Source: Sanderia malayensis (taxonomy: Eukaryota; Cnidaria; Scyphozoa; Semaeostomeae; Pelagiidae). From it: DNA of 64,000 nucleotides. Each line of letters opens with the position of its first letter. Position 1 is the stretch's first letter. The notes under the pieces are model-generated. The model was not told where the DNA came from. It was given only the letters and a program-made list of their open reading frames with translations, and made no database searches. The stretch covers positions 62,001 through 126,000 of the forward strand of contig RQOL01000636.1 of the NCBI GenBank assembly GCA_013076295.1, written 5' to 3'. Positions 2,715 to 64,000 of the stretch are shown here, piece after piece. Made by a program: the position numbers and the translations under genes.

Positions 2715-3583
2715 TTAAAGGGCTACTCCCACCATATTTTTTTATTTCATTTCTGGGTAGTTTTTGACGGAAAAACAGGTACTGCACTTTTTAAATTTCA
2801 AAATTCGCTCATTAACACCTCTTTTCACGGCTCCAAAAGTGCGATTTTCAGGCCATTTCTGAAAATGTCGCGCAACATGAAACGATCTGGGCCGAGGTTA
2901 TGTGACGTAGATGCCGGAACGCAAAAAAACTTCTCTCTTTGGCTTCAGTATGGAAAAATCAACGTCGCGTCCGGTTTTCTCCCTTGTTTTCAATGATAAA
3001 TACAAATGTTTTTTCAAACCACTTCAACACCATCATTACAAAGCTTATTGACATCTCCCCGTGTGTTTTTTTTTTTAATTTTCGGCATTGTTAAGGGCTG
3101 AAAATTGACCCCAAAGCTGATGCAGTGACAATGGATTTTTCCAGTATTCACACGCCTCACGTGGTTATGTGTTCATCACTCAACCTCTTCCTTCCTTTCA
3201 TTTTGCGTGATAAAACAACCAGCAAATGTTCGTGAATCGTGATATAATAAGTTTGTTTATCGTTTCCATCAGTTCTATACTCTATTTTATCAAGTTTTGC
3301 CGTGTGCTTGGTTTTAGCAAGATAATTGTGGATTATTTTTGTATTTACTACTTGGGTTTTTGTCAAAGATATTGAAATGCTAAAGTGATATGCGCTGTTA
3401 AAAAGTTGCTCAAATTGAAATTGTTTGGCTGACATATCCATGGAGTTCTTGTTATAAATTATATATATATCTTGGTGATTACATTGAAACCTAAGGCAAA
3501 GTAAAGGTGTATATTGTTGACAAAGTCAGACAATATAACCAAAACCAGCACACCAGTATGAAGCCCAGCATTGTGCTGGAAAG
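2715..3583. mobile_element. Inverted-repeat DNA element, one end only (copy 1)
   Basis: This block matches, in reverse orientation, the right half of the element at 13,605-14,902: the terminal segment TTAAAGGGCTACTC, the conserved arm with TACTGCACTTTTTAAAT, a shared ORF (3,157-3,441) and the stretch ending in CATTGTGCTGGAAAG. Homology stops near 3,583 and no second arm follows, so the copy is truncated. Both copies end in CCCTTTAA against unrelated flanks, which fixes this terminus. A TTAA target would suggest a piggyBac-like element, but no transposase confirms it. Confidence 0.7.
3157..3441 (-). CDS. Conserved ~94-residue ORF of the inverted-repeat element
   Basis: I do not recognise this protein. 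It is described because it is shared by both copies of the element: the other copy (14,368-14,583) keeps the blocks KQFQFEQ, MIHNYLAKTKH and YRTDGNDKQT with mostly conservative differences. It is hydrophilic, lysine-rich towards the C-terminus (RKMKGRKRLS), and has no visible metal-binding or catalytic motif. It could be an exon of the element's own protein or a chance ORF in conserved DNA. The start codon is unproven. Confidence 0.4.
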   Translation of the reverse strand: MDMSAKQFQFEQLFNSAYHFSISISLTKTQVVNTKIIHNYLAKTKHTAKLDKIEYRTDGNDKQTYYITIHEHLLVVLSRKMKGRKRLSDEHITT

Positions 3584-4386
3584 TACTGATTTCAATGCGT
3601 AAATGCCTATCACATAGGCAAAAACATGGATTTTTGGTATGATCCAGTAAAATTTAAAAACTGAGAAGAAACAAATGGTAAAGGAGGGACCTTTTCACAC
3701 ATTTTGAACATCTGGTAATCGTGGAAGGTACAGTATTTTTTGTTTTGTCGTGGAAGGTACAGTATTATATCATTCATAGCATTGAAATAAATGCTATTGA
3801 CAGCTTCTAAGACCTGTTTTGCATGCTCGATGTTACTACAAGGTCGATATTCGGAATTTTTTTTTAGTATCAGCAAATTAAACTTTAGTTGTTATGTTTA
3901 TTTTAGGGCTGGCGCCTTCTGGAGCAAGGAGCGCCACCGCGGAGACCGGAAAGGCTTGCTTATATAGAGGAAATTACAGTAAAAACAACTGAAGTATGGT
4001 CGAAACATGTGAGTTGTTTGCATCATGCATGGCATGAAAATCAGCAGATATAAAACTGGAAATTGCTCAGAATGGTAAACTGGATAGCAACACAATTGCT
4101 GTTATGAAGGCTGCGTGCATGTGTGGAGCCGGAGCGGGAGGCGGGACATGACGGACGGGAACAACAACTTAGAGTGTGGAAACTTCCTGACAAAGTTAAA
4201 ATAACGCAAATTTTAGTTCAAAAATAGGACACAAATCATATTTTTATTGTATTGTGTTGATTTTGTTTTCATTTTATTTTAAATGTCTTGACAAAACGGA
4301 TTTCTCTTTGTATTTTTCAATTGTCTTCATATCATTTGATAGATTGGCCTAGATCCTAAAAAAGCCTGTTGCTCTGTTCATTCTTG
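3584..4386. other. No supported gene
   Basis: AT-rich spacer between the truncated inverted-repeat element and the Mutator-like element. An 88-codon minus-strand ORF (3,610-3,876) shows no recognisable motif, and a short internal repeat of the word GTGGAAGGTACAGTATT occurs near 3,720-3,765. Nothing else is supportable. Confidence 0.5.
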
Positions 4387-4630: not shown

Positions 4631-5025
4631 TGTTGATCTTCGCACTTGTATATGATATCTTTTGCGGTGTAGATCTGTCTCTGTCACATGTACCGCACAC
4701 ATCCTGTCGTACCTTTGTTAGTCATAATATTATGTATTGTATTCAATATAATATGAATAAATCAATGAGTGCTTATTTCATCCTCAGCAACATGATGAGG
4801 CGCTAATCTTAGTATATACATGTAGAGACTTTAATATTTTTGGAATAGTTTCAAATAACGTCAGTTGTCGCAAATATTATGTAATTAGAGTTTAAACAAA
4901 GGTGCACAGGGGCTTTTAGTTCAGTTTGGGATCGGAATCTTAGAAAGCAACATCTCTGTGTATTTCTTGCCTTTCTACCTGATCTGATTGACCCGTACAA
5001 CACCACGTTGTGCCAATACAACATT

Positions 5026-8000
5026 ATGGCCAGCAATGCAATCATCGAAATTTCTAGCAGTTCAGAAGATGAAGCAATGAATGAACAGGTATTTATATAT
5101 GTATGTTTTTCGTTCTTCATGGTCGCTGTTATTAAATGCCAATTCTTATATCTGAAAAGGAGTTTACGTTAAATATTTCAGTAGGTAGCTAATAGCATAA
5201 ACATTATGTATTTAAAATAATCATACTTCTTACGGTTTTTCAAGTGTAGCAGTCAGTTGAATTGGACATGTCTGCACATTAATAAATTCTAAAGACTGCA
5301 AGACATGCAAGGCATGTGATTCATCCGTACCCGAGGTAAAGAAATTAAATATATTTTGAAATAGGTATTTATTATCGACGCTCAACGGTATATACGCTTC
5401 CCCTTTTGTTAAATAATGGATAAAACTTCATTTTACAAATCCTTGTAGGTGGGTTCTCCTACATGAACATGCGAAGCTTGCACCCTTGAAAACAAATTCG
5501 AAGCAGAATACTGTGACGCATGTGGTACAACAAGCAGTTGCAAAGTAAGCAAATCAAAATAAATATGACATAAATAATCCCAATAGTTGAATGTCTAATA
5601 TAACATATAGCGACGAGTTAGCATAAACGTGAACTTTCTCCTTCAATGTTTCTCAGCTACAGCAGCTGGTAGGTGACATGGAAAGTCTACAGTCTCCAAC
5701 AAAATCAGAGAATCTGGACAATGCACCTTTAAAGAGGCGACAAGAAAGAACTGCGAATGAAGAGCCAACGCAAATTGCATCTTTGAAAAGAAAAATTGTC
5801 ATGAGCTACTGGCAAATTATTAGCGGATTATGTTTATACTTACGCTGTATTCAATTCTCAATAGAATTAAAATTATATTCATTCATTCATGTTAACTTTT
5901 CCAACCATGGTAAAATAAAATATTTTGCTTCATGGTGACAACAATGAGAATGCAGATCAACAGAGAGAAATTAGCCCATCTGGAGTGCTTGTGTACGGAA
6001 CCCCATCCCAAGCTGCAACAGCTCAAGAAGCATTAGACATAATCTGTGGCCAAAGCATTGATGAAACAAAAATCTCAACCAAAATGACAAAGGGGATCCG
6101 CAAAACAGCATTGTACGTTTTAGATTTGAATGCACTGCATTCCAAGAACCAGGACATTGACCATGTCATCAATGAAAATGGTGTGTGGACGGATTTTTCG
6201 AAACCAAGAAAAGCATATGCTCTTACGAAGGAAGGTAAATTTGTGCCTGCTAATGCCAGTACGCCCAAACAAGATATGCTGATCTTGTACCGCTCTTACA
6301 GGACACACAAGCACACAAAAGAATTTAGATGTCAAGTGCTGACTGCAGTTAATGGAAATGATGAGCGCCTTGACAAAGGTATACTGTACTATTACTTTAA
6401 AAATAACATTGAAGTGCCAGTACGCATGATGCCACAAGGAAATGCCAAAAATTCAACAGCTGAGCCCCATGTAAGGACGGAGAGGAATATTTTAAAGAAA
6501 CTGAAAGATGAATGCCAACAAGATACAGGAAAGAGTGCTGTAGATATGTATTTCTGGAAATGGGGAGCATCTATGACTTAAAATATCAATCAGAGTTGCC
6601 TAGAAATACAAAACAGGCATACAACATAGCCTATCAAAGCAAATTGAAAGCAAAAAATGCGTCTGATTCGAATGAGACAAGGCTTAAGAGACCAGCCAAG
6701 CATCAGTTCTATGATATTCTAGAGATGGTGAATGATGGTGAGTTTGCTAGAGATATGAGCTTCTCTACCCTCTCTGGAAAACAAAGTAATAGGACATCTC
6801 CAAAAACATTCCAGGCAACCAATCAACAGTTGAGGGATGTGCAACGTTTCTGTTCAACAGAGACACCAGTTGGATTGCGCTCCATTCTGGGCATAGATGG
6901 TGCACATAATTGTGGAGAATTTTACATTACTCTCACAACATATCATCACCCATTCATAGAGAACAAGGCAACTGGCAGACCCTTACTGATGATAGGTCCA
7001 AGTGTCACACATACTACAAAGACAGATGAAGATTATCAATGCTTTCTGGAACAGCTAGACACACAATCACAGCTCATCAAGAAGAAAGAATTGATACTAG
7101 CTGGTGTTGGAACTGATGGCGAAGCAGCAATTGAAAAAAGTGTGATTTCCAGGTATGGCAAAAAGAATGAATCATTCATTCATTTGAATTGTGAAATTCA
7201 TGTAAAGGGTGATATTATTCGCTGTTGTGAAAAAAGTGCAGGGTAACCAAGGACAAGCTGATTCCTATTCTGGAAGACATATTTGGAAAGGTTAGAGGTG
7301 ACCTGAAAGTAAAAGGAATTGTTGACTGCGAAAGTTCAGAAGAATTTGAAGGCAAATCGGAGCAGTTGGTCCTTGTTTCTCAGAGATATTTTCCAACTGG
7401 TTCAGCAGCAAAACAGAGTTGTTGAAAGAACATATTTGGCTTTGGGTGATTACCAATTGAAACAGGAGTTTCAACACCATGGCGTGAGCTTAGAGCAATG
7501 GAGGTCAATGACAAAAGATCAACAGGCAGCTTTCATAAACAAATTAGACACATGGTCTATTAAAAGACTTCTTCAAGTCCACAAGAGTGGCTGCTGTTGA
7601 TATCGCTGGCCCCCATGAAAGCAACATTAAAGGGATGATTGAAGATGGTCACAAAATCAACAAAACAATGAATGGAGTGGTTCCATACCCTGGGGATGTC
7701 ACTGGTAGTCGGTGGTTTGTTTGCAGTCCCCCCATAGCATCTTCATCAACAGCACCTGATGTTGCTTGTCAAACCAAAGTCTTCAAAATTGAAAAAACCA
7801 AAACAGGTCAGATTTCTATAGTAAAAAAGTTGTTTATGTTGCTCTATGTTACAAAAAATCCGGAACAACAGAAATTAAAATGCATAGCAGAACTCTTGTT
7901 TTATTGTTACAGAATCCGTGTTTTATACAACTCTTGTTTTCCAACAGGTACATTCATCTGCCATTGTCCCAAAAATAAATCCTTCGGCTTATGCTGTCAT

Positions 8001-8733: not shown

Positions 8734-8968
8734 TCAACTGTTAGATCGTTGTTGCCACAGTTTTTACTTTAAATATTTCGTAATTCACTTTTGTTTATTA
8801 TTTCGATCCTAAGACCAATTAGTATTATTAGTATTGTTAGCCTAAGGCTAATTTGAACTTAGGCCAATATATAGATAATTGTATTTGCACCCGAAATAGA
8901 TTTGTTCACATTCTTACCATTCGCTAATTTGAATTCAGGCCATTAGTGGAAGTAAACATGCCTCAAAC

Positions 8969-9195
8969 TGTTGTATGAACACTTGTATTTTTCATTAATT
9001 CCTTCGGTGTGTTTGAAAATTTCATTTCGCCGAATTGTGAATCCCATTTCACCTTTTAGTAATTCGTTCGGTGTTTTAGAAAATTTCTTTTCGCCTTTTA
9101 GTAAAACCGTTCCGTGTTTTAGTAAATTTCTTGTTCCGTTCCGCCAGCTGTTTCGTTTCCCATTTCGTTTCGCGTTCCGTGTTTTAGAAGTAGCC
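8969..9195. repeat. Right arm of MULE
   Basis: Reverse complement of the left arm: it ends CCGTGTTTTAGAAGTAGCC and contains repeated CGTTCGGTGTTTTAG-like units. Apparent ORFs across it are translated repeats. The TTAGATTTT duplication follows directly. Confidence 0.92.
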
Positions 9196-9639: not shown

Positions 9640-11562
9640 TGGTCTTTTTGAATTTATTCGAATGCCTTTCGCACTTTGGAATGCCGCGCAAACATTTCAA
9701 CGATTCATGGATGAAGCTATACACGGTTTAGACTTCATTACGCCTACATAGATGATTTACTTATCGCTAGCTCATTCGAATCAGAACACCTTACTTAGCT
9801 GCTTTCGACGCCATCAAGTCAGCACTCGCCAACGCAACATTGCTCGTACACCCTTCACCAACTGATCCGTACTCTCTCATGGTCGACGCGTCAAACCTCG
9901 CTGTCGGAGCCGTACTTCAGCAACATATTGACGGGCAATGGAAGCCAATTTCATTCTCCTCGAAAAGATTGCAGCCAGCAGAAGTGAAGTACAGCACTTT
10001 CGGATGCGAACTACTTGCTATTTATCTTGCCATTCACCATTTTCTACACTGTCTGGAAGGTCGCCCGTTTTACATTTTAACCGGCCACAAACTGTTAACA
10101 TACGCCCTATCTGCATCAGCTGATCGTCACTCACCTCAAGAAATACGTCATCTGGACTTTATCTCACAGTTTACGACGGACATTCGCCATGTTCAAGGCA
10201 AAGAAAACATTGTTGCTGATGCACTGTCAAGGACAGAAGTCAACTCGATACAAGCCGTTCCTCCAATCGATTTTGCACAACTAGCAAAGGCTCAACAAGA
10301 AGACCCTGTTTTACCCACTCTTCAGTCTTCAACATCCCTTCGTTTAAAAGCTTTCCCGATTCAGAATACAACTGGCACTATTCTATGCGATACGTCCAAA
10401 GACAATCCGCGACCGTACGTCCCTTCATCATATCGACGAATTATTTTCAGTAACCTTCACAACATCTCACACCCTGGTATCCGCGCCACGCGAAACCTGA
10501 TCGCCGACCGCTACGTTTGGCTGAGCATAAACTCTGACATTCGTAAATGGACTCGCACATGCCTCCACTGTCAGAAAGCGAAGATCCAACCTCACACTGT
10601 CGCTCCTCTTGGAACGTTTGCCACGCCAGATGCTCGCTTTGCACATGTTCATATCGATTTAGTTGGTCCACTACCACCTTCTAATGGACATCGGTATTTG
10701 CTTACATGCATCGATCGCTTCACTTGTTGGCCACATGCTATTCCGATTTCCGACATCACAGCTGAAACATGCGCTCAAGCTCTCGTTACGCATTGGATTG
10801 CCACCTTCGGTGTACCCACTACGATTACCACAGATCGCGGTGCACAATTTGAGTCCGCCCTCTTTCGTTCCTTGACATCACTCCTTGGCATCAAACGCAT
10901 CCGTACTACTGCCCACCATCCTAGTGTGAATGGCCTCGTCGAGCGATTTCACCGTCACCTCAAGTCGTCACTCAAAGCTCAGTCAGATACGACTAAATGG
11001 ACCGAATTGATCCCGTTGATTTTACTCGTGATTCGATCTACGATCAAAACTGACATTACCTGTTCACCCGCTGAACTCGTCTTCGGAACCACTCTTCGCT
11101 TACCCGGAGAGTTCTTTGACACAGACAACTCAGAGAATTTCAACCCTTTTAGCTATGCGGATCACCTTCGTTATGCAATGCAACGTGTATCAGCTGTTCC
11201 ACTTCGAACGCAATCAACGTCCTCCCATCTTCCAGCAGATCTGATGAAGTGTACCCACGTCTTCGTCCGACACGATGCAGTCCGGAAACCACTACAAACA
11301 CCATACGATGGTCCGTATAGAGTTCTTGACCGACATGAAAAACACTTGTCAAACCGTTACTATAGATCGCTTAAAAGTGGCTCACCTTGATACCGACTAT
11401 CTTCAACCAACGATCCCAGCTACACCTCCAGTGCAACCTCCAGAAACACCTCAACCAACAAGATCAGAGCCAATCTCCCAAGCAACCCCGATTCTTCCAC
11501 CACGGACAACTCGCTCTCGTCGCAGAGTTCATTTCCCTGAACGATATGGTTTTGACTCTTAA
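9640..11562 (+). pseudogene. Ty3/gypsy pol: RT end, RNase H, integrase
   Basis: The 5' part (9,640-9,830) is the end of a reverse transcriptase with FEFIRMPFALWNA, QTFQRFMDEA and YIDDLLIAS, split by frameshifts. From 9,840 a 516-codon frame encodes RNase H ([13 protein letters not shown], then [13 protein letters not shown]) and integrase: an HHCC finger (HPGIRATRN...CLHCQKAKI) and the DDE core [16 protein letters not shown] and [13 protein letters not shown] frame change near 11,355 moves the C-terminus to the 11,275-11,562 frame, which ends with proline-rich text and RRRVHFPERYGF. Gag, protease and most RT are missing, so the copy is 5' truncated. The intact family reverse transcribes and integrates LTR elements. 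Confidence 0.92.
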
Positions 11563-18168: not shown

Positions 18169-19241
18169 ATGTTGAATCAAGTTGTTATTAGTGAGAGAAA
18201 CAAAGCGTACATATATTTACTTTGGCAGGAGTCGAAGCTCTCCTATCGAGAGATCGCTGGACAGTGTAAGATCTCCAAGTCTAGCGCAGAGAGGATCTGC
18301 AAGGAGGGACTGGAAGAGAAAGTCCCTAAGAAAAGGAGTGGCATGCCGGAAATTCTAAGCCGCAGGGACAAAGATCACTTCCTTCGGAACTATGAGGGAA
18401 AGCAATCCTAATGTCCATATGATGGAAGTGGCGAAGGAATGTGACATCACAGAGATAAGTAAGAAGACCTTGTGTTGAGTGTTTACGACCTCCGGCTATC
18501 AGTGTATTCGCCCTAGAAGGAAAGGCCTGCTGAATCTGAAAGACAAAAATAAGAGGGTGGCATATGCCCTGAAGGCATTGAAAGACGTTAGCCCTGCTTT
18601 TTGGACATTGGATGTATTGCTGTACCTGGATGCAGTATCCTTTGTCTATTAGTTGAATCCATACGAGGATGTTTTGTCCCCAGCAGGCAGAGTATGGAGG
18701 AAGCCGGGTGAAGGCCTGGATATCACTGTGAAGGGCAGCAAGGATCTGCCAGGTGGAAGGGCATGTCACTATGTGGTAGGTATTTGCTATGGTGCTGGAG
18801 CTGTATTGGGGGAGGAGTATTCCAGCATGAATGGCAAGTGTTTTTCTAATTTTTTTGAATCGACATTGCATCAAGTACTTTTAGATAGAGCAAGATTAAC
18901 AGGGAAAGAGAGTCTTTCATTTTTTGCAGGACAATGACCCAAGCCAGAACAGTGCCATGGCAAGAGATGCCATGAAGATCATTGGAGCAGAAGTTGTCAA
19001 TATTCCACCAAGGTCCCCGGACATCAACCTGATAGAGAACTTTTTTGACAATGTTAAAAGAAAACTGAACAAGGATGCGTTGGAAAGAAGGATAACAAGA
19101 GAGACTTTTAATAATTTCAAACTCAGAATTATAGATACCATTACTAATTATGATACAGATATAATAGAGAAGACAATTCAAAGCATGTACAATTGCTTAA
19201 CTATAATTTCTAAGAATAAAGGTTGTAGAACTAATTATTAA
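18169..19241 (+). pseudogene. Tc1/mariner-group transposase, DD34E
   Basis: N-terminal helix-turn-helix: YIYLLWQESKLSYREIA and ISKSSAERICKEG. After a frame change near 18,405 the catalytic region has YLDAVSF (first Asp), then GGRACHYVVGICYGAGAV. A T-run near 18,925 shifts the frame into QDNDPSQNS and IPPRSPDINLIENFF. I count 34 residues between the Asp of QDND and the Glu of LIEN, giving DD34E as in Tc1. At least two frameshifts inactivate it. I could not find its terminal repeats with confidence. Confidence 0.85.
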
Positions 19242-19478
19242 TCAAATTTTTGTATATAAAGTTGCAGAATTGGGTAGAAATTTATGCACGGAATATTCTT
19301 CTTTGTAGATTACAGCAGCAGGGGATAAAGTTATTGAAATAAATGTAGAAGTTCTTGTATTATTGTAAGTACACATTGACTTTTGTCAATATGTGATATG
19401 TCACATTATTTGAAGCTCTAAAAATTGTTGTCAACCCGTGATGTGTGTTCAAATGAGATGAACTGAAATGTTGAAAAG
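19242..19478. other. No supported gene
   Basis: Short spacer between the mariner-type gene and the alpha-kinase transposon. I compared it with the region before 18,169 for inverted ends and saw none. Confidence 0.45.
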
Positions 19479-19483
19479 TATTG

Positions 19484-19822
19484 TATGGTGGCCCATGGCT
19501 ATCAACACGAATAATGAAGTTTTTCACGCATTTGATTGCAAATTATTATCATTTTTAGAATAATTAAATAAAAATTTACTAATTTAATAAATAATATAAA
19601 ATAAAATAAAATTTAATTTTACAAATAATTTATTAGTTTAATAATTTTCAATGTTGAAAAAGATGTTTTATTCATCTTATTAAATAGTATAATGAAAATT
19701 TAATTTAATTTACCAAAATAACAAGATAATAATTTTGAATTAAAAAATATTCAAAAAAGAATTTTTTTGCAACGTGGCCCATCGCTATCAACTATCATTA
19801 AAGTACTCAGTGTAATTTACCG
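19484..19822. repeat. Left inverted arm of the alpha-kinase transposon
   Basis: AT-rich arm that matches 22,882-23,246 in reverse complement from GTGGCCCATGGCTATCAAC through TTTTCAATGTTGAAAAAGA to CATCGCTATCAACTATCA and AAAGTACT. Differences are scattered substitutions and small indels. Note that CATCGCTATCAAC near the inner edge repeats the outer CATGGCTATCAAC word. Confidence 0.9.
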
Positions 19823-19986
19823 GGAAAGCACTCCATTTTGTTCATGGGCCTAATCTCAGGACAAATATATAATACTGCACAAATAGGTGTTATAAATCTA
19901 CCTCTACAGTATTTGCATTCATGGTGCAGTCAAGAGAAAGTCAAAGGGCATTTGGACTTAAGAACTGGAGGGAGGATGAAAGTCTG

Positions 19987-21340
19987 GAAAAGTCTTCAGA
20001 CGTTATGTTGGCTCCAACTTAAAACGAGAAGAAATACTCTACTTCGTGAAGAGAGACTACTACAGATACAGCTGGAGTATAACTCTTGATCAACGATTGA
20101 GATATTTTGGCGTTCGGCATGTGAACAGAACTACTCCATTGCCAGAAGTTATAGATGCAGTACAGGCAGAATTTGATGGTGGAGGGCAAAAGCTTGGATA
20201 TCGAAGTATGAATCTGAAGTTAAGAAATGAACATGGCAGTTTTGTACCCAGGAAACTTGTGAAGGAGTTGCACCGAGGAAACTTCGGAAAAATAAAAAGG
20301 GTATGAAAAGACCTTTCATATGTGATGTCCCCAACCAGCTCTTCTCATCGGATGGGCATGACAAAATGTTGGGGTTTCAGAACAGTACCTTCCCCCTTGC
20401 CATGTATGGCTGCCTGGATACATTTTCCAGAAAAATCACATTTCTCAACGTTTAGACTGGGAACTCCCTTGTGATTGGAAAATTTTTTATGATGTATCTG
20501 AATAAAGCAAAAGTCATTCCAAATTATACACGCATTGATAAGGGGACTGAAACTGGTGTGATGGCTGCTATACATACATATCTCAGGAGTAAAACTGACT
20601 TATTTTTTTTATTTTATATTCTGCGAAAGTTGACAACATTCATTTCAGTGCTAGTCTACTAGGCGTAACAATTACACTATTTTGTCAGTCGAGAAAGTTC
20701 ACTTTGCTTTCTGTTGTTCTTTTCGTTCTGTTTAATTTGTTTACTTCGGACTCTGATCTATTACACCCGTTGCTGATGACTTTTTTAAGCGTGAGCAGTG
20801 GTCTACCTCGGCATCGGTTAGGCTCGTCAGAGAAGAGATAGATGACACTGTCATCTATGGCTCCTCTACATCAAATAAAATTGAACGCTGGTGGAGGGAA
20901 CTTCACGAACGAATGGAGAAGGGCCTAAATCATACTTGAACCAGTTGTTATCAAGATGCCTTTATGATCCACATAATTCAAGGGATTGTAATAATTTAGC
21001 ATATATATTCATCCCTGTGCTAAAAAGGGAATGTGATGCTTTTGTTAGATTATGGAATTCACACAGGATAAGACAACAGAAAAAGTTGCAACTTCCAACA
21101 GGCATACCCGATCATATGTATGCATTTCCAGAACATTATGGGGGCGAGAACAAAGGTTTTGTTGTGACAGAAAATGATCTAATTGATGCAGCTGACTATG
21201 CAGAGTTGATAAATGCGCCAGATGATTACTTGTCTGTTGAAGATAGAGCAAGATTTAGTGGCTTTGTACCTGAACTAAGCAATCTGGAGTTTAGAGAAGC
21301 TGTTGCAGTCTATGAGTATCTGAAAAATAATTGCCCTTGA
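19987..21340 (+). pseudogene. DDE/integrase-like transposase of the alpha-kinase transposon
   Basis: Opening block REEILYFVKRDYYRYSWS (about 20,030), then RLRYFGV, PEVIDAVQAEFDGGG and GYRSMNLKLRNEHG (to 20,306). After a stop and frame change come SSDGHDKMLGFQNSTFPLA (first Asp) and GCLDTFSRK. After an in-frame stop come RIDKGTETGVMAAIHTYLR (second Asp) and, at about 20,860-20,900, STSNKIERWWRELHERME (Glu). The C-terminus at 20,891-21,340 has PVLKRECDAFVRLWNSHRIR and PDHMYAFPEHYGG. This order matches an 'integrase core' family common in cnidarian and other animal genomes. A non-coding stretch (about 20,590-20,780) may be an intron. Multiple stops make it inactive. Confidence 0.84.
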
Positions 21341-21471
21341 TATATATCAAAACTGACATTAACACAGCTAACATAGTCGGTGAAAGCAACTTGTAATAAA
21401 CAAAATATTAATAGTATCTTTAAGCGTCCATATATTGCAATATCCTATGAAAAATGATTACACAGCCATTT

Positions 21472-22863
21472 CTATGCAATTACGCTGCTAGATAATTGTT
21501 CCAAATTAAGGAGTTTGCGATACAAATTGCAAACATGATGCAATGAAAAATGTGTAAATTCATGGTGCTGAAGATTTCCTGCACAGAATAACTTTTCAGG
21601 ATCATTAATTGTGCAAGCAGCAAATGAAGATATTGCAATTTCTGGATCACACAGTTTATATCCAACATCTTTTAAATCAAGGAGCAGTAGCTTTCCTTCA
21701 CTATCAAGAAATGAAAAATGGCATACGGCTACTGCTTTTTCATAGATATCCTTGTCTACAATGTCTGGTGTGCGTGGTTCTCCATTGATGTTTACATATT
21801 TGACAAGGGTTCCAGGTAGGAATGGTTCCACTGTCACAGGCACATAGTCTATCATTGAAAAATATATCTCAGCATAACTAAAAATGGATCCAAATAGTTC
21901 CTTTTCTTCAATCTACTTTTCCAAGGGATGTAAAATCCCCTTAGCAGCCATATGCATCTGCACCTGCTTTCTTGTGTGTTCTGCAACTGTGGTGTCCCCA
22001 AGTAGTGGTTTGATGCTTTCCCATGTTTCTGCTTGGAACTTTTTTACAACCCAAGTCCCTTTAAAAACCCCTTTCTTGTTGACTGCTTTAAAAGGGTTTC
22101 TAAAGCCTCCTGCTGCAAAATGTGTCCTTTCTAATTGAAAATTATGTGGATCATTCTTTACCCATACCTTGTCGATGATGCTAAAAAATTCCAGTTGCAA
22201 TGTAACATCATCATATACTTCAGGTTGGATAAGCTTTCCAGCACCTAGAAGATCAGCTATTGTTACAGATTTTTGGACAACAGCAGCCTTAACTTGCTCA
22301 GCACTTGATGTTGCTGATGAAATTCCAGTCATTCTTAGCTTTGGTGAATACACTTTTAGATGGCAAACTGAACAACATGATGCTTGAGTGCTGACATTCT
22401 TATTGAAATCTGGGTTGAATTCATAATTTTGACGTTGATTAGTAGGCCTGTCCAGCTTTCGCACTCCACTTGCTGATGTCATAAACCGCACTAGATTCAC
22501 TTTTTTCTTCCCCATTACATGCCCGTCCAAGGTGCAAGAAGGACCCCTGTCGCTATACAGAACATCGCAAGAGCCTGTGGGAGCACCATAACAGGACTCA
22601 CATGCATGTTTAATATTTTTCAATGTTAATGATTCATACTGCGTGAAGTCCACAAAGTCCTTTGAATCCAGTGGCTCAAATTTTTTCAATTTTCCAGTTG
22701 GCTGGGAGTTAACTCTCTGCAGAACAATAGATTTGATGCTCTTTTTTGCCTTCTTGCCTTTACCATGCCCTGCATTGTCTTCTTGACCGATTCGTTGAGC
22801 TTTTACCTTTGCCATGAAATTACTGTATGCATCTCTTCCATCCGCCATATTTGCATGCACCAC
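21472..22863 (-). pseudogene. Alpha-type protein kinase carried by the transposon
   Basis: A 464-codon minus-strand frame, open except for one TAG (21,913-21,915). The N-terminal half is hydrophilic with Cys clusters (CESCYGAPTGSC, CCSVCHLKV). The C-terminal half is an alpha-kinase domain: GVFKGTWVVKKF (glycine-rich strand and ATP-binding Lys), HTRKQVQMHMAAKG, VTVEPFLPGTLVKYVN, KAVAVCHFSFLDSEGKLLLLDLKDVGY (catalytic region, shown here across 21,700) and the zinc-anchored end with HHVCNLYRKLLNL. In alpha-kinases the last block usually reads HxCNxxC; here the second Cys is Arg. Alpha-kinases (eEF2K, TRPM7, MHCK) phosphorylate Ser/Thr. It lies wholly between the arms, starting about 20 bp inside the right one. 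Its role in the element is unknown. Confidence 0.85.
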
Positions 22864-22881
22864 GAGTTTCGTTTCTGTGAA

Positions 22882-23246
22882 TTACATGAAGTACTTTACT
22901 GATAGTTGATAGCGATGCGCCGCGTCGCAAAAAAAATATTTTTTTTGAATACTTTTTAAAATTCGAAAATATTATTTTCTTCTTTTGATAAATTAAACTT
23001 AATTTTATAAAACTTTTATTATGCTATTTACAAAATGAATAAGATGAATAAAACCTCTTTTTCAACATTGAAAATTTTTAAGTTCTTAAATTATTTGTAA
23101 AATTAAATTTTATTTTATTTCAATTTTATTTTATTTTATTTATCAAATTATTAAATTTTTATTTAATTACTCTAAAAATGGTAATAATTTGCAATCAGAT
23201 GCGTGAAAAACTTCATTAGTTGCGTTGATAGCCATGGGCCACAATA
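22882..23246. repeat. Right inverted arm of the alpha-kinase transposon
   Basis: Reverse complement of 19,484-19,822. It ends GATAGCCATGGGCCACAATA and is followed by TATTG. The inner edge lies just upstream of the kinase start codon, so the arm probably contains that gene's promoter. Confidence 0.9.
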
Positions 23247-23251
23247 TATTG

Positions 23252-31685: not shown

Positions 31686-32990
31686 TCAAGGGAATCCCCC
31701 ATTAGTAGATTTCCTTGAGATACAGTTAAAGATTAATGGATGCCTGTGAAATAGAAGGTGGCCTCTCGCGGGTTCTTGAAACATCTGTTCTGTTCCTTCT
31801 ACTTCTTGAAAACACGTTTGACGAATAAGCAAAGTCAGTGTCATTACTTCCATCCAACTGAGAAATAATAGTTTTAAAACGAGACTTGCTAACATATTCC
31901 CTTTCTTTAATTCTTTCCGAAGAGCCAACACGTGGACAATAGCCCTATTTCTACTATGCTCAGTAGAAATAGGGCTATTGTTGAATCCACTTATAAACTG
32001 CTGCAAAGATTTGTTTATCCTTGGTAAATACGCAAAGTGGGAAGCAAACAGGTGTGTTTTGTCAGTGGGAATTAACAATCCACTGTCTTCCATGCTACAG
32101 AAAAGGTTGTAGTACAGATGAGTACATCCTGTAAATACATCACGCCAGAGACACTCAATCCGCTGATTATGGACAGTGCATCCTGTGATATGACTGCCAC
32201 GTCTAGGTCCTCGTAATGGGTGGGTTAACATATACTTAGCAACATCTACATTCTCCTTTCCTTTGTCTGACCTGACTCTTGAAGGCAATCCAAATTGCTG
32301 TACAGCACCATGGAAACTGGTAAACACTGTTTCAGCTCTGTTATTGTTGCTGCAAGCTAGGAATACTATCATTCTTGTGTAGCCATCAATTCCACCATGA
32401 AATACAAGACGCCATCTGCAAAAAAACATTTAAATTTATTTCTCCCACAGTGAACTTGTGGTAAAATTATCATTGTTTTTGGCAAATCAGAGCACCGAAA
32501 TTGGAAATACCTGATATACATGAAGTGTTCACCTTATCAACTTGTGGTTTCCATCTATGTGCCACAAAGCAAGAGGTGAATAAATGCAAAGATCGAAGCA
32601 AAACACCCTCTGGGTTCATTCTTTTCATTGACGCACAAATCTGTTCTCTTTGTACAGTCTGTCCCCTTGACCTTAGTAATCCTGTCATTCGGATATACCC
32701 TACAGTAGGAAATTCATGCATGATATTTCCGGTTAATGCATCAAGTTCAGCATCTGGGAGCGTGCTATAGTATGATCGGCTTCGCAATCCATATTCTGCC
32801 ATTCTTCACCCAACTGTCCTGGTACTTATTCCAAGCAAAGAACTTATCAGCGGCATTCCAAATCCAAGTCCCAAAAGAAAAGACAAGTGCCCTTCAGATA
32901 TATCAAATTTGGGTCTTCCTTTTTGATGTGTGGTGTGATCTGGTTGGTGCAATAGGAGAGGAAGGAAAAATAAAAACCCGTGAAACATAA
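31686..32990 (-). pseudogene. Second integrase-core transposase, with a GT-AG intron
   Basis: The N-terminal helical domain includes LLGISTRTV and MAEYGLRSRSYYSTLPDAELD, then TVGYIRMTGLLRSRGQTVQ and MNPEGVL. A frame slip precedes LWHIDGNHKLIR (first Asp). The next codons look like a stop, but AG|GTGAAC is a splice donor. A 117-bp intron (32,416-32,532) ends TTTGCAG and joins to [18 protein letters not shown] in frame. Then come [16 protein letters not shown] (second Asp) and [15 protein letters not shown] (Glu). One TGA lies upstream near 32,805. The same architecture occurs in multi-copy fish and cnidarian proteins. Terminal repeats not found. It is a different subfamily from the one at 20 kb. 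Confidence 0.82.
32416..32532 (-). other. Intron of the second integrase-core transposase
   Basis: Minus-strand donor ATAAG|GTGAAC and acceptor TTTTTGCAG|ATGG. Removing it joins codons ...AAG TTG ATA AG and A TGG CGT, restoring the conserved IRWRL transition. Confidence 0.75.
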
Positions 32991-40463: not shown

Positions 40464-42345
40464 GATGTCATCTTTTCAGAAAGAGACTTTCATCATTTCA
40501 ACGACGATGCCTTATCAAAGTCTGATTATATTCTGTTTGACTTTGCTGACAAGGTTGATCAAGAATGCAATGAAAATGCATTGAATGACACAGAGAATCC
40601 TGAAGTTGAAGACAATATTTTGCCAGTGGGAGCAACATACGAAGAAAACTTCATGAGAGAAGTGGCAAATTTGCAAGGTGCAAGACCTTGAAGACCTCCT
40701 GCGAGATTAATTGAGCAGCAGGTAAATGATGAACAAGCAAACTGTTTTAGCATCAATGTACAAGCTGATGAAATTGATGAGCCAAAAAGCATTAGAGATG
40801 CATTGAATGGAGAACATTCTATTGAATGGAAAGATGCCACTAATGCAGAATATGAATCATTAATCAAAATTCAGACATGGGATTTAGTTCCTTTGCCAAA
40901 AGGAAAGAACATCGTTGGCAGTAAATGGGTGTTTAAAGTGAAAAGAAATCCAGATGGTTCTGTGGATCGTTTCAAGTCCCGTTTAGTTGCTCAGGGATAT
41001 TCACAAGCAGAAGGATTAGACTACCAAGAAGTATTTTCACCTGTTGTCCGATACTCCTCCATACGATCTTTACTTGCTTTGGCAAACATGAATAACTTAG
41101 AAATGCATCAGATGGACGTGAAAACTGCGTTTCTTCAAGGAGATTTGGACACTGACATCTACATGAAACAACCGGAAGAATATGTAGATAGTGAAAAGCC
41201 AAACCAGGTCTGTAAATTGAATAAAGCCATATACGGTTTAAAGCAAGCCGCTCGTTGCTGGAATGTTTCAATTGACTCATTCCTGAAGGCACATGGATAC
41301 AAATGTAGCAGCGCTGATACTTGCCTCTACATAAAGTCAATCCAGAAAGAAAACAGAAAGGTTGACTTTGTAATCATAGCCTTGTATGTGGATGATCTCC
41401 TGATCATTTCAAATAACACTGAGATGATGAATAAAGAAAAGGTATCATTAAGTCAGAAGTTTGAAATGGTTGATCAAGGCGAGTTAAAGTACATTCTGGG
41501 GATGTCTATTCGCAGAGACAGAGAATCCAGAACACTGACAATCAAACAATCAATGTACTTAAAAGGTGTGCTGAAAAAGTTTGACATGGAGAATTGCAAG
41601 CCCATAGCAACACCATTGGAGCCAGGTAAAAGATTTGTAAAGTTACAAGAAAATGAAGAGCCTAGTGATGTTCACAGGTACCAGATGGCTATTGGTTGCT
41701 TGACGTATGCAGCTAATGCAACACGTCCTGATCTAGCTGCTGCAGTGGGAGTTCTTGCTCAGTTCATGTCAAATCCGAGCAAAGAACAATGGCAAGGAGT
41801 GAAACGTGTGTTTCGGTACATCAAAGGCATGTTGGATTTTGGTCTGAAGTATGAGTCCCTGCATACAAGAAAACCAGATCTCTATGGTTACTCAGATGCC
41901 GATTCGGGCAGGAGACCTAACAACCAGAAAGTCAACTACAGGTTACTTATTCAAGTTAGCAGGTGGAACAGTTTCATGGAGAACCAAGAAGCAACCAGTT
42001 GTTGCATTATCGTCAACTGAAGCGGAATACGTCGCTTTGTGTTCAGCTACACAAGAAGCCGTATGGCTAAGAAGACTTCTCAAAGGCATTGGTTTTGTAC
42101 AACCAGAACCAACCATAATGTATGAAGACAATCAAGGTGCAATGGCACTCTCAAAGAACACAAAGAATCGTCCAAAGACAAAGCATATTGATATAAAATA
42201 TCATTATATCAGGGAAGCAATCGCGAACGATGATATAGAACTTCATTATTGTCCTACAGAAAACCAAGTTGCTGACATGCTGACAAAAGGACTCGCAAAA
42301 CAAAAATTTGAAGAAATGCGTTCAATGATGGGAGTTTGTTGCTAA
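40442..42345 (+). pseudogene. Copia pol: linker, RT, RNase H
   Basis: The linker block KRFIRSRDVIFSERDFH is typical of copia after integrase. The RT at 40,803-41,900 has VGSKWVFKVKRNPDGSV, RLVAQGYSQ, MDVKTAFLQGDL, IYGLKQAARCW and ALYVDDLLIIS (catalytic YVDD). RNase H begins YSDADSG. A frame slip near 41,908 moves to the 41,851-42,345 frame, with [33 protein letters not shown] and [14 protein letters not shown], ending [13 protein letters not shown] at 40,689-40,691 separates the linker from the RT. Family function is reverse transcription of the element RNA. Confidence 0.92.
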
Positions 42346-57395: not shown

Positions 57396-58571
57396 CTTCA
57401 TCATCATCATCAGTCCATAGCCTTACGGCCGTTGGTGCACATAGGATTTGATACACTGCCTCCATAAACTCCTGTCCCTGGCATTCTCCCTCAGATCATC
57501 CATCCTACTTCCGCTCCATTCCTTCAGGTTGTTATCCCATTTCTCCATTGGTCTTCCTCTTCCTCTTCTTCCCTCCATCTGACCCTCCATTATCATTCGT
57601 GGTAACCTGCCTCTTCTAACCGTGTGACCATAATACTTGAACTTCCTCTCCTTCACGGACTCCATGATCTTCTTAGGAACATATTTGCACTGTCTTGCAA
57701 TTTCTTCTCGGACCCATTGGTTGGTTTTCTTTTCTTTCCAGGTGACGCCAAGTAATCTTCTGTAAATCTTCATTTCAAAAGCGTTGATTCTTCTCTCATC
57801 CCCCTTGGTGACCGTCCAGCTCTCACTAGCATACAACAACGTTGCTTCTACAATTGCCTTCATTAACATCACCTTAGTGCACATTTTGATGTTCTTTGCT
57901 TTCCAAATTGTTTCCAACTTCGCTAATGCACTTGTTGCTCTGCCAATTCTTGCTCTTACCTCTTTCTCAGATTTTCCATCGTTTGTAATTATTGCTCCTA
58001 GATAGGTGAATGTTTCAACTTGTTCCAATTTTTTCCCATCTACCATGATATCAAGTTGTTCATTTTCAATGTTCTCTCTTTTTCCTGCGATCATTACCTT
58101 ACTTTTTTCTACACTAATCTCCATACCATAATCTCTGGACGATTCATCTAATCTTTTTGTCAATTCTTTTAGATCCTCTGCACTTTCTGCCAGCAAAACT
58201 ATGTCATCTGCAAACCTAAACTCTGCAATCCTTTCTCGTTCTCCAGCGCACTTTACTCCTCCATCAAAATTGTTCAACACATCCTCCATGATTCTTTCAA
58301 GAAACAGATTAAAGAGGACAGGAGACAGCAGACAACCTTGTCGAACTCCTACAGACGTCTTGAAATATTCACTGAAATTATTGTCCACAAGTACTTTGGA
58401 TCTAGCCTTCTCGTACAATTTCTGAATCGTGCTAGTGATCCCTTCTCCAATATTATATTTCTTCATTGTATGCCACAAGGCTTCATGCCACACTCGATCG
58501 AAAGCCTTCTTAAAATCGATGTAAATTTGGTAAATTTGGGAATTTCTTACAATCGCGCAAATCACCCTCAA
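57396..58571 (-). mobile_element. RTE-like LINE, 5'-truncated
   Basis: Ends on the left in a (TCATCA)-like simple repeat (57,398-57,412), the type of 3' tail common in RTE-clade LINEs, and starts abruptly within the RT at about 58,571. One open frame fills it. No endonuclease is present, consistent with 5' truncation during target-primed insertion. Confidence 0.8.
57423..58571 (-). CDS. RTE-like reverse transcriptase, open for 382 codons
   Basis: RT blocks YIDFKKAFDRVWHEALW, GVRQGCLLSPVLFNLFLE and RFADDIVLLAES (catalytic), then YGMEISVEKSKVMIAG and TFTYLGAIITNDGKSEKEV. The C-terminus has ARIGRATSALAKLETIW, LLYASESWTVTKGDERRI and GRGRPMEKWDNNLKEW, the typical end of RTE/related LINE proteins. 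No stop or frameshift in 382 codons, unlike almost every other element here, so the insertion is comparatively young. The first Met is arbitrary because the true start was lost by truncation. Confidence 0.88.
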   Translation of the reverse strand: MRVICAIVRNSQIYQIYIDFKKAFDRVWHEALWHTMKKYNIGEGITSTIQKLYEKARSKVLVDNNFSEYFKTSVGVRQGCLLSPVLFNLFLERIMEDVLNNFDGGVKCAGERERIAEFRFADDIVLLAESAEDLKELTKRLDESSRDYGMEISVEKSKVMIAGKRENIENEQLDIMVDGKKLEQVETFTYLGAIITNDGKSEKEVRARIGRATSALAKLETIWKAKNIKMCTKVMLMKAIVEATLLYASESWTVTKGDERRINAFEMKIYRRLLGVTWKEKKTNQWVREEIARQCKYVPKKIMESVKERKFKYYGHTVRRGRLPRMIMEGQMEGRRGRGRPMEKWDNNLKEWSGSRMDDLRENARDRSLWRQCIKSYVHQRP

Positions 58572-59331: not shown

Positions 59332-62300
59332 CAAGTCCTCGCAGTCGACGAGAAAGGGAAAGACGGAGGGCCTATGTCAGAGTTCTCCGACAGCAACAAC
59401 CTGAAACCGTTCAAACACGGTCAGGTCAACAACCAGCTAAAGTCCCTGTCGACGAATTACTGCAATTGCAACTCCAGCACGGCCATGCTCAGCAACCGGC
59501 AGTTCCCATACAGCAACCTGAACAAAGAAGTGAAGCTGAAGTGAACACCGATCAGTTACGTCCCACACCCAACGCAGCAGGGGGGGGGGGGAGGAATGCA
59601 AACTGATGCAAGATGGATGCCACCGCAACCCTTCCAGTTCTTTCCACAACCGCTGCCACAGCCACAGCAGATGCGACAGGGGGCAGTACAACCAGCAGAG
59701 GAACAGGCAGCAGCACCAGCTATTCCACAGCAAAATGCCAATCCTCCACCGCAGAACCACGATCTCCACCGCATGGCACCAATGAACAATGTCTGTACAA
59801 ATTGCGGTGCCAAGTATTTCAAGGAGGAGCTGAACACCAAAAAGAAATACACAAAGTGCTGTCGGGAGGGAGCTGTCCACCTACCTGCAATACAGCCTCC
59901 ACCTGCAGTACTCATGCCTCTCTTCCTTGGTCATACAGAAGACACGCAAAGAGATTCAAAAGATTTTCTTTCCAAATTTCGCCAATACAATGCTACCATG
60001 GCAATGGCATCCTGGACAGCAAATATACCCCAAGTTCCAGGCAGGGGGCCATCCGTAATAACAATACATGGCAGTGCATATCGCAGGACAGGTATGTTTA
60101 AAATTCTGTTCCCACTTCATTACCTTATGTTCCGTTACACAATAACATGTTTGTTTTACAACTTTTTACTATTGCATGATCAGTCATTATTAACAACCTG
60201 TTTTTTTTGTTTAGCCCGCCTTGGCCCATTGCCAGGACAGCAGCCAAAATATGCTGAGCTGTACATCATGGACACAGCTGAAGCACTTGAGCACAGAATG
60301 AACAATCCCACCAACAGGGATCTCAATAAAGACACCATCAAGAAGCTCCAAGACGAACTTCTTGCAGTCAACCCATATGCTCAAGAATACAAGAACATAG
60401 GCGACATACTGCAACAGCAAAAAGAACAGGCAACTGCAGCAAATGAGCCCATTCCCACATTCGACATGATTATCGCGTCAAGAGCCAACTAGGGTCGAAG
60501 ATACGACACTCCCGCAGCGTCAGAAATAGCAGCAATCTACAGCACAAAAGACGGTGGTCCACCAGATCCAAACGAAAGAACCATGCACATCCAGAGAGGT
60601 GACGGCTACTTGATTAACATCAAAGCAACCAATCCAGCCGCCGATCCACTCACGTATCCACTGCTGTTTCCGTTCGGTGAACATGGTTGGGGTACAACAA
60701 TCACAAGACTGCCATCAGCGCGTTCACAAGCCAAACCAGAGTAACGCCCAGCCAATTCTACACATACAGAATCCAAGTACGGGAAGGATTCTCAGCCCTT
60801 CATCTCTCAAGACTACTGTTTCAACAGTATTTGGTTGACGCATTCACCAAGATAGAAGGCAACGACCTTGCTTATATCAGATACCATCAGAAAGATCTCA
60901 GAGTTGAGTCGTACAAAGGACTGATGGATCACCTTTACAGAAGAGCTGAACAACAAAATCTGATTGCACAAGCCCACAATCCAGGCGCTGCACTGCACAC
61001 TGATGTTGGACGAGTCATCATCTTACCGTCCACATTTACTGCCAGCCAATGAAACATGCAACAGAATTACCAAGATGCCATGACCATTGTCAGAAAACAC
61101 GGCAAGCCAGACCTATTCCTCACATTCACAGCGAATCCGAACTGGCAAGACATCTTGGACAATTTGCTACCGAACCAGAAGCCACCAGACCGACCAGATA
61201 TTGTCACACACATCTTTCACTTGAAATTCAAACAACTGCTGTGAGACATACTGGATCTCAACTTCTTTGGCAAAGTCATCGCTTACGTCTACACGGTGGA
61301 ATTTCAAAAACGTGGACTGGCGCACACTCACATGATCATATCTTTTGCCAACGAAGACAAACCACGCACACCAGAGCATGTTGATTGGATAATATCGGCA
61401 GAGATACCAGATGAGAATACCCACGTCCACAAACACAGAATCGTCAAGAAACACATGATGCACGGCCCGTGTGGAATTCTTATTCCCTCATGCATTTGCA
61501 TGCAAGATGGGAAATGCAAAAAGAAGTTTCCGAAAGACCTCACACAACAAACAGAATTCAATGTCAATGGATACCCATTGTACAGGCGACGAGGTATGTC
61601 AACATGAATTGCATTTCGTACTTATGATTTACACTTTCCGTGAAATGTACACAAATGTAACCATGGCACTTTCTTGCAGGCCAAACAACTGCTCAACTCA
61701 GGCAACACAGACTGAACGACTCTTGGGTTGTGCCACACAACCTCAAACTGCTTCTCAAGTTCGACTGCCACATGAACGTGGAAGTGTGCACCACAGTCAA
61801 AAGTGTCAAGTACATTTTCAAATACATCCATAAAGGCAATGACATGGCACACGTCGAAATCAGAGAAGGTCACGAAGAAGCAAATGCCCGACAAGACGTT
61901 GTCCGCGATGAGATACGTCAGTACCTGAATTCCAGATACGTAGGTCCGCATCAGGCAGTGTATAAACTTATGCAATACGAGATGCACGACAAAAGTCACA
62001 CAATCATCCGACTTGCAATTCACTTGCCACATCAACAACCCGTATACTTCACACACCCAGAGCAAGCTGCACAGAGAAACACTGACAGCATGCTCATGGC
62101 CTACTTCAGCCTCAACCAGAGAGAAGAGAATGCTCATCGGTACTTATATCAAGACATACCAGAGCACTACACTTACAACAAATCCGCTAAGCAATGGCAG
62201 CAACGGAAGCGTCGATCAGCCAAAGGTGTCATAGGCAGAATATACAATGTTCTTCCTTCAGATCCTGAACGATTTGCCCTGAGGCTCATATTGCTACACA

Positions 62301-64000
62301 GAAAAGGGGCAACCTCCTTCGAAGACATCAGAACAGTTGACGGGATCACTCACAACACGTTCAAGAATGCAGCAAGAGCTATGTCTCTCTTAGAGGATGA
62401 TGCAGAGCACATACGTTGCTTACAAGATGCAGTGGTCTTCCACCTGCCTGCACAGATGAGACAATTGTTTGCAACACTCATCCTCTTTCAAACTCCAAGT
62501 GACATTCATGTTCTCTTCACAGAATTCCAAGAAGACATGGCAGAAGATTACGTCAGACACGGTCAGCTTCAGGATCCCAACGCAACATTCCAGCAGCAAC
62601 ACATTCACATGTGCCTGGCCGACATCCAGAAAAACCTGCACATTCATGGAAAATCCCTCAAGGACTTCCCCGAGATGCCGCAGCTACCTGCCAACTATGC
62701 TCAGCCACAACAGCCAGCTGACGAAATCAACATTGAACAGGAACGAGAGCAAGGACAACGAATGTTCGAGCAACTCAATCCAGAACAACTGCAGATACAC
62801 AACACCATTGTGCAAGCCATCAAGACGCAGTCACCAGACAACTGTTTCTTTCTCGACGGTCCAGCAGAAACTGGCAAAACCTTCCTGTACAACACATTGG
62901 TACACAATCTGCAAGCTTCCGGACACAAAGTCAAATGCGTAGCATACTCCGGAATACAAGCAACACTGCTCATTAACGGCAGAACAGCACACTCGACATT
63001 TCAGATACCGATTCCTCTGCTCGACGATTCCACTTGCAACATCAAAGCACAAGGTCTCCGAGCACAACAACTGCGAGACACAACGTTATTCATTTGGGAC
63101 GAAGCTTCCATGATTCCAGCAACAGCACTCAAAGCAGTTGACCGTCTGCTCAGAGACATCACCAAAGTCGAACAACCTTTTGGCGGCAAATACTTCATGC
63201 TTGGCGGTGACTTCAGACAAGTGCTGCCAGTTATCAAGAAAGCAGGCAGAGAACGAGTCGTGCAAGAATGCCTCAAGTCACGAAAAGTGGAGGATCTGTG
63301 GTCTCATTTCCAACAATTCAGACTCAATACAAACATGAGAGCTGTTCAAGACGAGACTTACCAAGCATTCTCAGACTGGCTTCTCCGAATAGGCAATGGA
63401 GTAGAACCTTACGATGATCAAGATCAGATCAACCTTCCACAACAAATCTGCATCAAGTCACTTCAAGATCTCATGAACTCAATCTATCCTCAAGCTGAAT
63501 CAGCAGATGCACATCTCCTACTGGATCCCAACACCATGTCCGAGCGTTGTTGTTTGACACCAAAGAATGAGTTCTCACATCACATCAACGAACTCATTCT
63601 GCCAAGACTTCCAACACCCCGGAAACACTACCTCAGCATTGACAAAGTCGAAACAGATGATCCAGAAGAGGCTGCAGCATATCCCATGGAGTTTCTCAAT
63701 GCACAAACCCCAGGCGGAATGCCTCTACATTCGCTACAATTGAAGGTAGGCACACTATCTTTTAACACTTCATTTAAAATTGCTTTGCCTTACTCAATCT
63801 AGGCTCACTCAATCTCATTTTCCTTTAGATTGGAGCCACAATAATTTTGCTCAGAAACATCAACCCTGCGAAAGGACTATGCAATGGAACACGACTAATA
63901 GTGAGAGATCTCAAACGACACATCATAACCGCAGAGATCATCACAACTCAGAACAAAGGCCAGTATGTTATGCTTCCACGCATAACTCTGACCTGCCAAG
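59332..64000 (+). mobile_element. Helitron, 3' end beyond the window
   Basis: One multi-exon RepHel gene fills 59,332-64,000 on the plus strand. The element's 5' terminus must lie upstream of 59,332, but no certain TC end was recognised. The sequence is richer in GC and CA than its neighbours, and the reading frames are much better kept than in most of the window. The end of the helicase domain and the CTRR hairpin terminus lie outside. Confidence 0.87.
59332..64000 (+). pseudogene. Helitron RepHel protein (HUH nuclease and PIF1-like helicase), partial
   Basis: Start MPRASPRSRRERERRR. A Gln/Pro-rich region follows, with a frame slip in a G-run near 59,585. A zinc-finger CTNCGAKYFKEE lies near 59,793. 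The Helitron-like core has ELYIMDTAEALEHRM, DELLAVNPYAQEY and YPLLFPFGEHGW. The HUH nuclease has FLTFTANPNWQDIL, then EFQKRGLAHTHMIISF (HTH of HUH) and the nicking Tyr block VKYIFKYIHKGND. The helicase (61,730-63,802) has FLDGPAETGKTFLYNTL (P-loop), TLFIWDEASM (Walker B), LGGDFRQVLPV and FRLNTNMRA. Introns are 60,092-60,214, 61,594-61,679 and 63,746-63,828, all GT-AG. Stops occur at 60,490, 61,051 and 61,242, with a slip near 60,685. The family moves by rolling-circle transfer. Confidence 0.9.

Follow-up and report, generated by a model that had tools for sequence, protein, structure and literature searches.

An Alpha-Kinase Regularly Paired with an IS3EU-Type Transposase in the Genome of Sanderia malayensis

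Introduction

Does a protein kinase gene that lies between the arms of a DNA transposon belong to the element, or is it a trapped host gene? The question is raised by a locus in a stretch of 64,000 nucleotides from the scyphozoan Sanderia malayensis (GenBank assembly GCA_013076295.1, contig RQOL01000636.1, positions 62,001 to 126,000; the whole stretch is called the window here). From the letters alone, positions 19484 to 23246 of the window had been predicted to hold a DNA transposon in which an integrase-type transposase and an alpha-kinase converge. We find that this is an old, broken IS3EU-type cut-and-paste DNA transposon with a transposase gene on the plus strand and a convergent alpha-kinase gene on the minus strand, as predicted, and that both genes of this copy are dead. 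The kinase is a component of the element and the regular partner of one transposase clade in this genome. We think it likely, with some reservation, that the element is a member of a kinase-bearing IS3EU clade, that its two genes have been inherited together, and that the kinase is the partner of its own transposase.

Structure of the Element

The element (19484..23246, 3763 bp, no strand assigned) has the termini TATGGTGGCC..GGCCACAATA and is bounded by a left terminal inverted repeat (TIR) on the plus strand (19484..19830) and a right TIR on the minus strand (22875..23246). The outermost 133 nt of the arms (19484-19616 and 23114-23246) are 89% complementary, and when the outer 380 bp of the two sides are aligned with gaps the pairing continues inward to about 19830 and 22875. 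The arms are therefore ~340-370 bp long, close to the 340-365 bp of the original prediction, with 275 identical positions among the first 340 alignment columns, gap columns counted in. A changed copy of the terminal motif recurs at the inner end of both arms (19774-19792 in the left one). TATTG, which had been noted on both outer sides, adjoins both element ends directly. Because the left flank reads GTATTG (19478..19483, plus strand) and the right flank TATTG (23247..23251, plus strand), which is five of the six left-hand bases, we read the flanks as a 6-bp target-site duplication (TSD) from which one right-hand base appears to have been lost. The termini of the window element, TATGG..CAATA, are one change away from the TAYGG..CCRTA given for TET+ rust members of IS3EU in the relevant part of PMC12730594, and the relatives described below end in TATGG..CCATA.

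The transposase gene (19921..21340, plus strand) is interrupted by frame changes and stops. It matches the rva_4 integrase core (PF24764) in two pieces (E = 6.9e-4 and 2.9e-5), neither of which reaches the curated cut-off. Three intact relative transposases match the same profile at E = 2.4e-25 to 1.1e-20 with the DDE triad aligned, and alignment with intact relatives places the triad letters of the window copy at ~20351 (SSDGHDK), ~20537 (RIDKGTET), and ~20883 (NKIERWW, which lies in a different frame).

The kinase gene (21472..22848, minus strand) comprises an N-terminal and an alpha-kinase domain and is broken by a single in-frame TAG (21913-21915). The alpha-kinase domain (21523..22113, minus strand) matches PF02816 at E = 5.3e-15 in the piece after the stop and, read through the stop in the genome scan, scores 65.7 bits against a cut-off of 21.3; profile and fold both identify the predicted alpha-kinase. 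In alpha-kinases, a Lys, an Asp, and a Gln have catalytic roles and further residues serve a zinc site. The window copy reads LDLKD where relatives have LDLQG or LDIQG, so that the catalytic Gln is changed, and, like the kinase of family A described below, it also lacks the last Cys of HxCNxxC. Among database relatives of the kinase, K252, D371, Q373, G374, and H357 are kept in 69 of 69, and the last Cys in all 61 that have a letter there. The kinase of intact copies is probably an active Ser/Thr alpha-kinase. The modelled N-terminal stretch (22468..22752, minus strand) has a probable ubiquitin-like beta-grasp fold; structure searches ruled out no fold family.

Other mobile DNA lies nearby. 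A Tc1/mariner-type transposase piece is found just beyond the left end of the element (18924-19241; PF13358, E = 1.3e-5, below cut-off), and further remains in the window include RNase H with integrase, RVT_2, RVT_1, and a PIF1-type helicase (9843-11390, 40803-42020, 57423-58571, and 61730-63802). A second rva_4 integrase relic occupies 31686-32429 (PF24764, E = 1.6e-60); the genome-scan match to it (C591:93929-94456) lies more than 5 kb from any kinase match.

Copies, Ends, and an Empty Site

The window alone is compatible with a host gene passively trapped between the TIRs of this single copy. In the assembly (184 Mb, 918 contigs), the window's own end, used as query, gave three matches, two of which are the ends of the window element itself, and the family therefore looks rare, a search with its own end being no proof of rarity. 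The third match is a second copy on contig C494, which is ~97% identical to the window element in two stretches. It also matches 34 bp past the right end of the element and a 109-bp piece of the left flank, 2.4 kb between two of these matches being unaligned, and its kinase carries the same TAG and reads LDLEG. In our reading this copy is either the same insertion on the alternative haplotype or a segmental duplication of it.

A genome scan with PF02816 gave 99 matches, which merge into 92 loci (fragments, host genes, and duplicate contigs counted), in keeping with the suggestion that the kinase has spread with the element. Among the 30 best alpha-kinase matches, 26 carry TATNGTGGCC within the initial 1000 bases of the locus, upstream of the domain and on the same strand as the kinase, where base counting predicts ~0.1 match per 30 kb; by their flanks, these 26 loci are 23 distinct insertions. 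The other four are L031, which has the motif with one mismatch, and L019, L023, and L032, which have none. L023 is an ALPK1-like host gene, and L019 is a 98% copy of L017 whose alignment stops ~96 bp short of the end of L017, so its own end may lie outside the fetched stretch.

Eleven relatives were taken with wider flanks (L034-L037, L039, and L054-L059). Both ends are visible in eight of them (the right end of L056 lies within the overlapping L016), and seven of these eight have perfect 6-bp duplications of the IS3EU kind (GACCAG, GAGCTG, CAAGTG, CTGATG, GACTAC, CACCTG, and TTTGTG); in L035 the duplication, GTATAC, is accompanied by two extra bases. A motif search did not find the second end of L034, L054, or L058. 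The window itself holds the exact empty site of one relative: the flanks of L039, joined at a single CAAGTG, match 117 of 121 bases at 9040-8920 (8920..9040, minus strand), with the element absent. Family A includes eight insertions in different flanks that are 99.7-99.9% identical over ~3.09 kb, have sharp ends, and all keep a 436-aa kinase frame open. Thus, this family has moved recently.

Two further observations concern these copies. The 6 bases beside the kinase ends of L004-L033 look weakly palindromic, often S-A-N-N-T-S. On contig C686 (G000:C686:3374429-3412485) kinases and transposases form a cluster in which kinase matches at 3389615, 3397255, and 3404895 follow one another every 7640 bp, the pattern expected of a tandem duplication.

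Linkage of Kinase and Transposase

The intact transposase of L036 served as the query of a transposase census, in which 108 rows from the 102 scored of 582 candidates merged into 98 loci. Close transposases (at least 41% identity) have a kinase within 5 kb in 40 of 57 cases, and all 40 pairs are convergent; relatives elsewhere in the genome thus hold both genes, a check that had been proposed. Only one of 41 distant transposases (at most 37% identity) has a kinase near it, also in convergent orientation. As a control, the 150 best PF24764 matches were examined, 150 of the 572 candidates having been scored; six have a kinase within 5 kb and none of these is convergent, by which the kinase is rejected as a general partner of rva_4 transposases. 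All six full-length close transposases have a kinase match 159-433 bp away, so that kinase-less copies with the same arms, a case named beforehand as refuting the original prediction, are not seen among them. By their identities these six transposases, one of which has a TGA, represent four families; families with split genes cannot score as full length.

These results dispose of passive capture. Both genes recur, in convergent orientation, in divergent families whose arms differ, and in the kinase tree the element kinases and their database relatives are separated from the eight host or reference kinases tested with an ultrafast bootstrap of 100. The kinase-end motif counts, the census, the relatives with both genes, and the full-length set together rule out chance pairing or a lone capture, and we give passive capture practically no credence. 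A viral origin of the kinase was also considered and dropped: a pattern-based scan of viral contigs found no relative. The statement that alpha-kinases are no standard transposon cargo does not survive, given that the kinase is a regular partner of one clade here and that fungal IS3EU elements with an alpha-kinase are in print (PMC12730594, in the part bearing on these elements).

Some loci fall outside this pattern. L061, one of the distant transposases, lacks a kinase match within 5 kb. One TACGGTGGCC end is present there, the opposite end not having been found, and no such end was seen at L060 or L062. Host genes are present among the 92 kinase loci: besides L023, both kinase matches of L064 look ALPK1-like, and L063 is nearest to MHCK-A. 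At L064 (G000:C613:3105800-3112000; 1029-1436, 3423-4295, and 4848-5258) the two ALPK1-like exons flank an open reading frame with an FHA domain (PF00498, E = 9e-7). In vertebrates, ALPK1 acts together with TIFA, an FHA protein, and this arrangement may therefore be an old gene neighbourhood.

Coinheritance and Selection

Distances between kinases follow those between transposases (r = 0.86; 15 elements, 93 pairs). When two near-duplicates are dropped the correlation is 0.63 (13 elements, 71 pairs), a value reached by none of 9999 permutations. The unrooted kinase and transposase trees share three groups, namely families {A,E,G,J,K}, {F,H,I}, and {window,B,C,D}. Between families, the proportion of synonymous differences (pS) in the kinase is 0.72-0.89, which is saturation, while that of non-synonymous differences (pN) stays lower, at 0.28-0.48 for 10 kinases and 0.21-0.36 for 7 transposases. 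Both genes have therefore been under purifying selection.

Several observations weigh against the reading favored here. No kinase match lies within 5 kb of 17 of the 57 close transposase loci; all 17 fall short of full length in the scan, and on the contigs of 10 of them no kinase match occurs at all. Conversely, a listed close transposase lies within 5 kb of 41 of the 92 merged kinase loci, a lower bound that misses several young copies because most transposase candidates (all but 102 of 582) went unscored. The loci are partly dependent, since some stand for one insertion on duplicate contigs and the C686 cluster is repeated. The transposase of the youngest family does not form a single open frame, perhaps owing to introns, and the kinase of that family lacks the last Cys of HxCNxxC. 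The Mantel test was run on stop-masked pieces of broken genes, and the finer branches of the two trees disagree: J groups with G by kinase but with A/E by transposase, and the window element is placed differently among B, C, and D, within-group support being low to moderate. Lastly, in the dN/dS check that had been proposed, the one close pair gives omega estimates of 0.44 for the kinase (11 synonymous and 18 non-synonymous changes) and 0.47 for the transposase. The breaks in the transposase recur. In several A, E, G, J, and K families (L055, L057, and L039 included) the matches break at query residues ~252, 285, and 343, which reflects introns or decay; the intact B, C, and D genes do not have these breaks.

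Proposed Role of the Kinase

We propose that the transposase would bind the TIRs, excise the element, and insert it with 6-bp duplications. The Ser/Thr alpha-kinase, probably active in intact copies and guided by its N-terminal domain, would phosphorylate the transposase or the end-bound complex and so set when or where the transposase works. Such a partnership could be likened to that of RAG2 with RAG1 in convergent RAG-like transposons. We take the transposase to be a likelier target than a host protein, since among the transposases scanned the kinase is restricted to a single clade, whose tree it tracks.

The main rival is that the kinase acts on a host factor such as a chromatin, DNA repair, or silencing protein, and TRPM7 kinase fragments do act on histones. 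The kinase would then be an anti-silencing device like the TET/JBP dioxygenases of fungal IS3EU elements, which the author of PMC12730594, in the section concerned, thinks serve to escape methylation silencing. The same source has the TET/JBP genes switching superfamilies, whereas the kinase is confined to one scanned transposase clade and its distances track those of the transposase; a host target is conceivable to us but doubtful. Far less credible is selfish retention, in which the kinase would harm or arrest cells that lose or over-use the element, by addiction or by an eEF2K-like control of translation. We noticed no third gene between the arms, though no antidote search was made, and in the kinase proteins scanned against Pfam the kinase domain alone exceeds the cut-off.

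The young, near-identical insertions, perfect duplications, empty site, and conserved partner gene make this a testable transposon-borne kinase system.

Relatives in Other Organisms

Protein searches gave 118 and 330 relatives of the kinase (120 of the 330 listed) and 585 of the transposase (120 of them listed). The relatives named among the matches listed come from Acropora, Stylophora, Oculina, Exaiptasia, Actinostola, Paramuricea, Dendronephthya, Clytia, Phallusia, Ciona, and Patella; they are mostly cnidarian, with tunicates in addition and, for the transposase, a limpet. When 164 kinase clusters are set against 115 transposase clusters, all with a contig size on record, 10 pairs stand on contigs of exactly equal size, against 0-3 at ten shifted offsets, and 7 of the 10 concern contigs above 10 kb, where the shifted offsets give none. 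This hints that kinase and transposase share contigs elsewhere, Ciona included; megabase contigs do not show that they share one element.

More tentatively, an entire clade within IS3EU, found in cnidarians and tunicates and, going by published work, in rust fungi, might run on a transposase and an obligate alpha-kinase with a ubiquitin-like docking domain, paired since before or near the split of animals and fungi. We infer the link to the rusts from the fungal portion of PMC12730594, and we regard this wider claim as rather unlikely. Were it true, this would be, to our knowledge, the first case of a DNA transposon that relies on a protein kinase of its own to control its mobility, and the alpha-kinase expansions of rusts and of this genome would be transposon copies rather than host signalling genes. 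The present data already show that many kinase-like genes of this genome are parts of mobile DNA. Several listed relatives of the element kinase stand in databases under the host names TRPM6, MHCK, or eEF2K, which calls for caution in annotation. Alpha-kinase counts of this genome may include transposons, as may those of rusts, in which the family is described as highly expanded (PMC4469406) and for which a table row in that paper gives 79 and 39, taken here as the counts of the two rusts from the row without its headings.

Comparison with Known Systems

IS3EU has been a Repbase superfamily since 2013 and is characterized, in the account of IS3EU/GingerRoot in PMC10045372, by TA..TA termini, usually 6-bp TSDs, and an integrase-type DDE transposase without the HHCC motif. 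The element described here shares the termini, the TSD length, and the transposase type, and differs in its long TIRs and in having a kinase as second gene, a comparison made with Repbase IS3EU by description only. Other cargo is on record: transposons that have captured host proteins are mentioned, in general terms, in a meeting report of 2012 (PMC3520738), and Styx, an IS3EU derivative, carries other genes (PMC10853768, in the part on this element). PMC6505742, which surfaced as a candidate match, was set aside since the part in question concerns an unrelated eIF2-alpha kinase. No animal IS3EU element with an alpha-kinase was found in the literature searched, which did not extend to Repbase or most subscription journals.

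Host alpha-kinases (eEF2K, TRPM6/7, MHCK, and ALPK1) share the kinase fold and the conserved residues with the element kinases, which differ in forming a separate clade and in having their own N-terminal domain. The proteins of RAG-like (RAGL) transposons are unrelated to those of the element. RAGL transposons are likewise DNA transposons with two convergent genes in the description of PMC7204232, and the analogy is functional only. The closest parallel is that of the fungal TET+ IS3EU families, all of which, as presented in the corresponding part of PMC12730594, have the transposase and the alpha-kinase in opposite orientation within one element and a TET/JBP gene between them. In the six full-length Sanderia relatives the gap between transposase and kinase matches, 159-433 bp, is too short to leave room for such a gene. 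The pairing of transposase and alpha-kinase is thus already in print, in passing, for fungal IS3EU (PMC12730594, same part), and what we add is evidence on linkage, coinheritance, selection, and fold in an animal genome.
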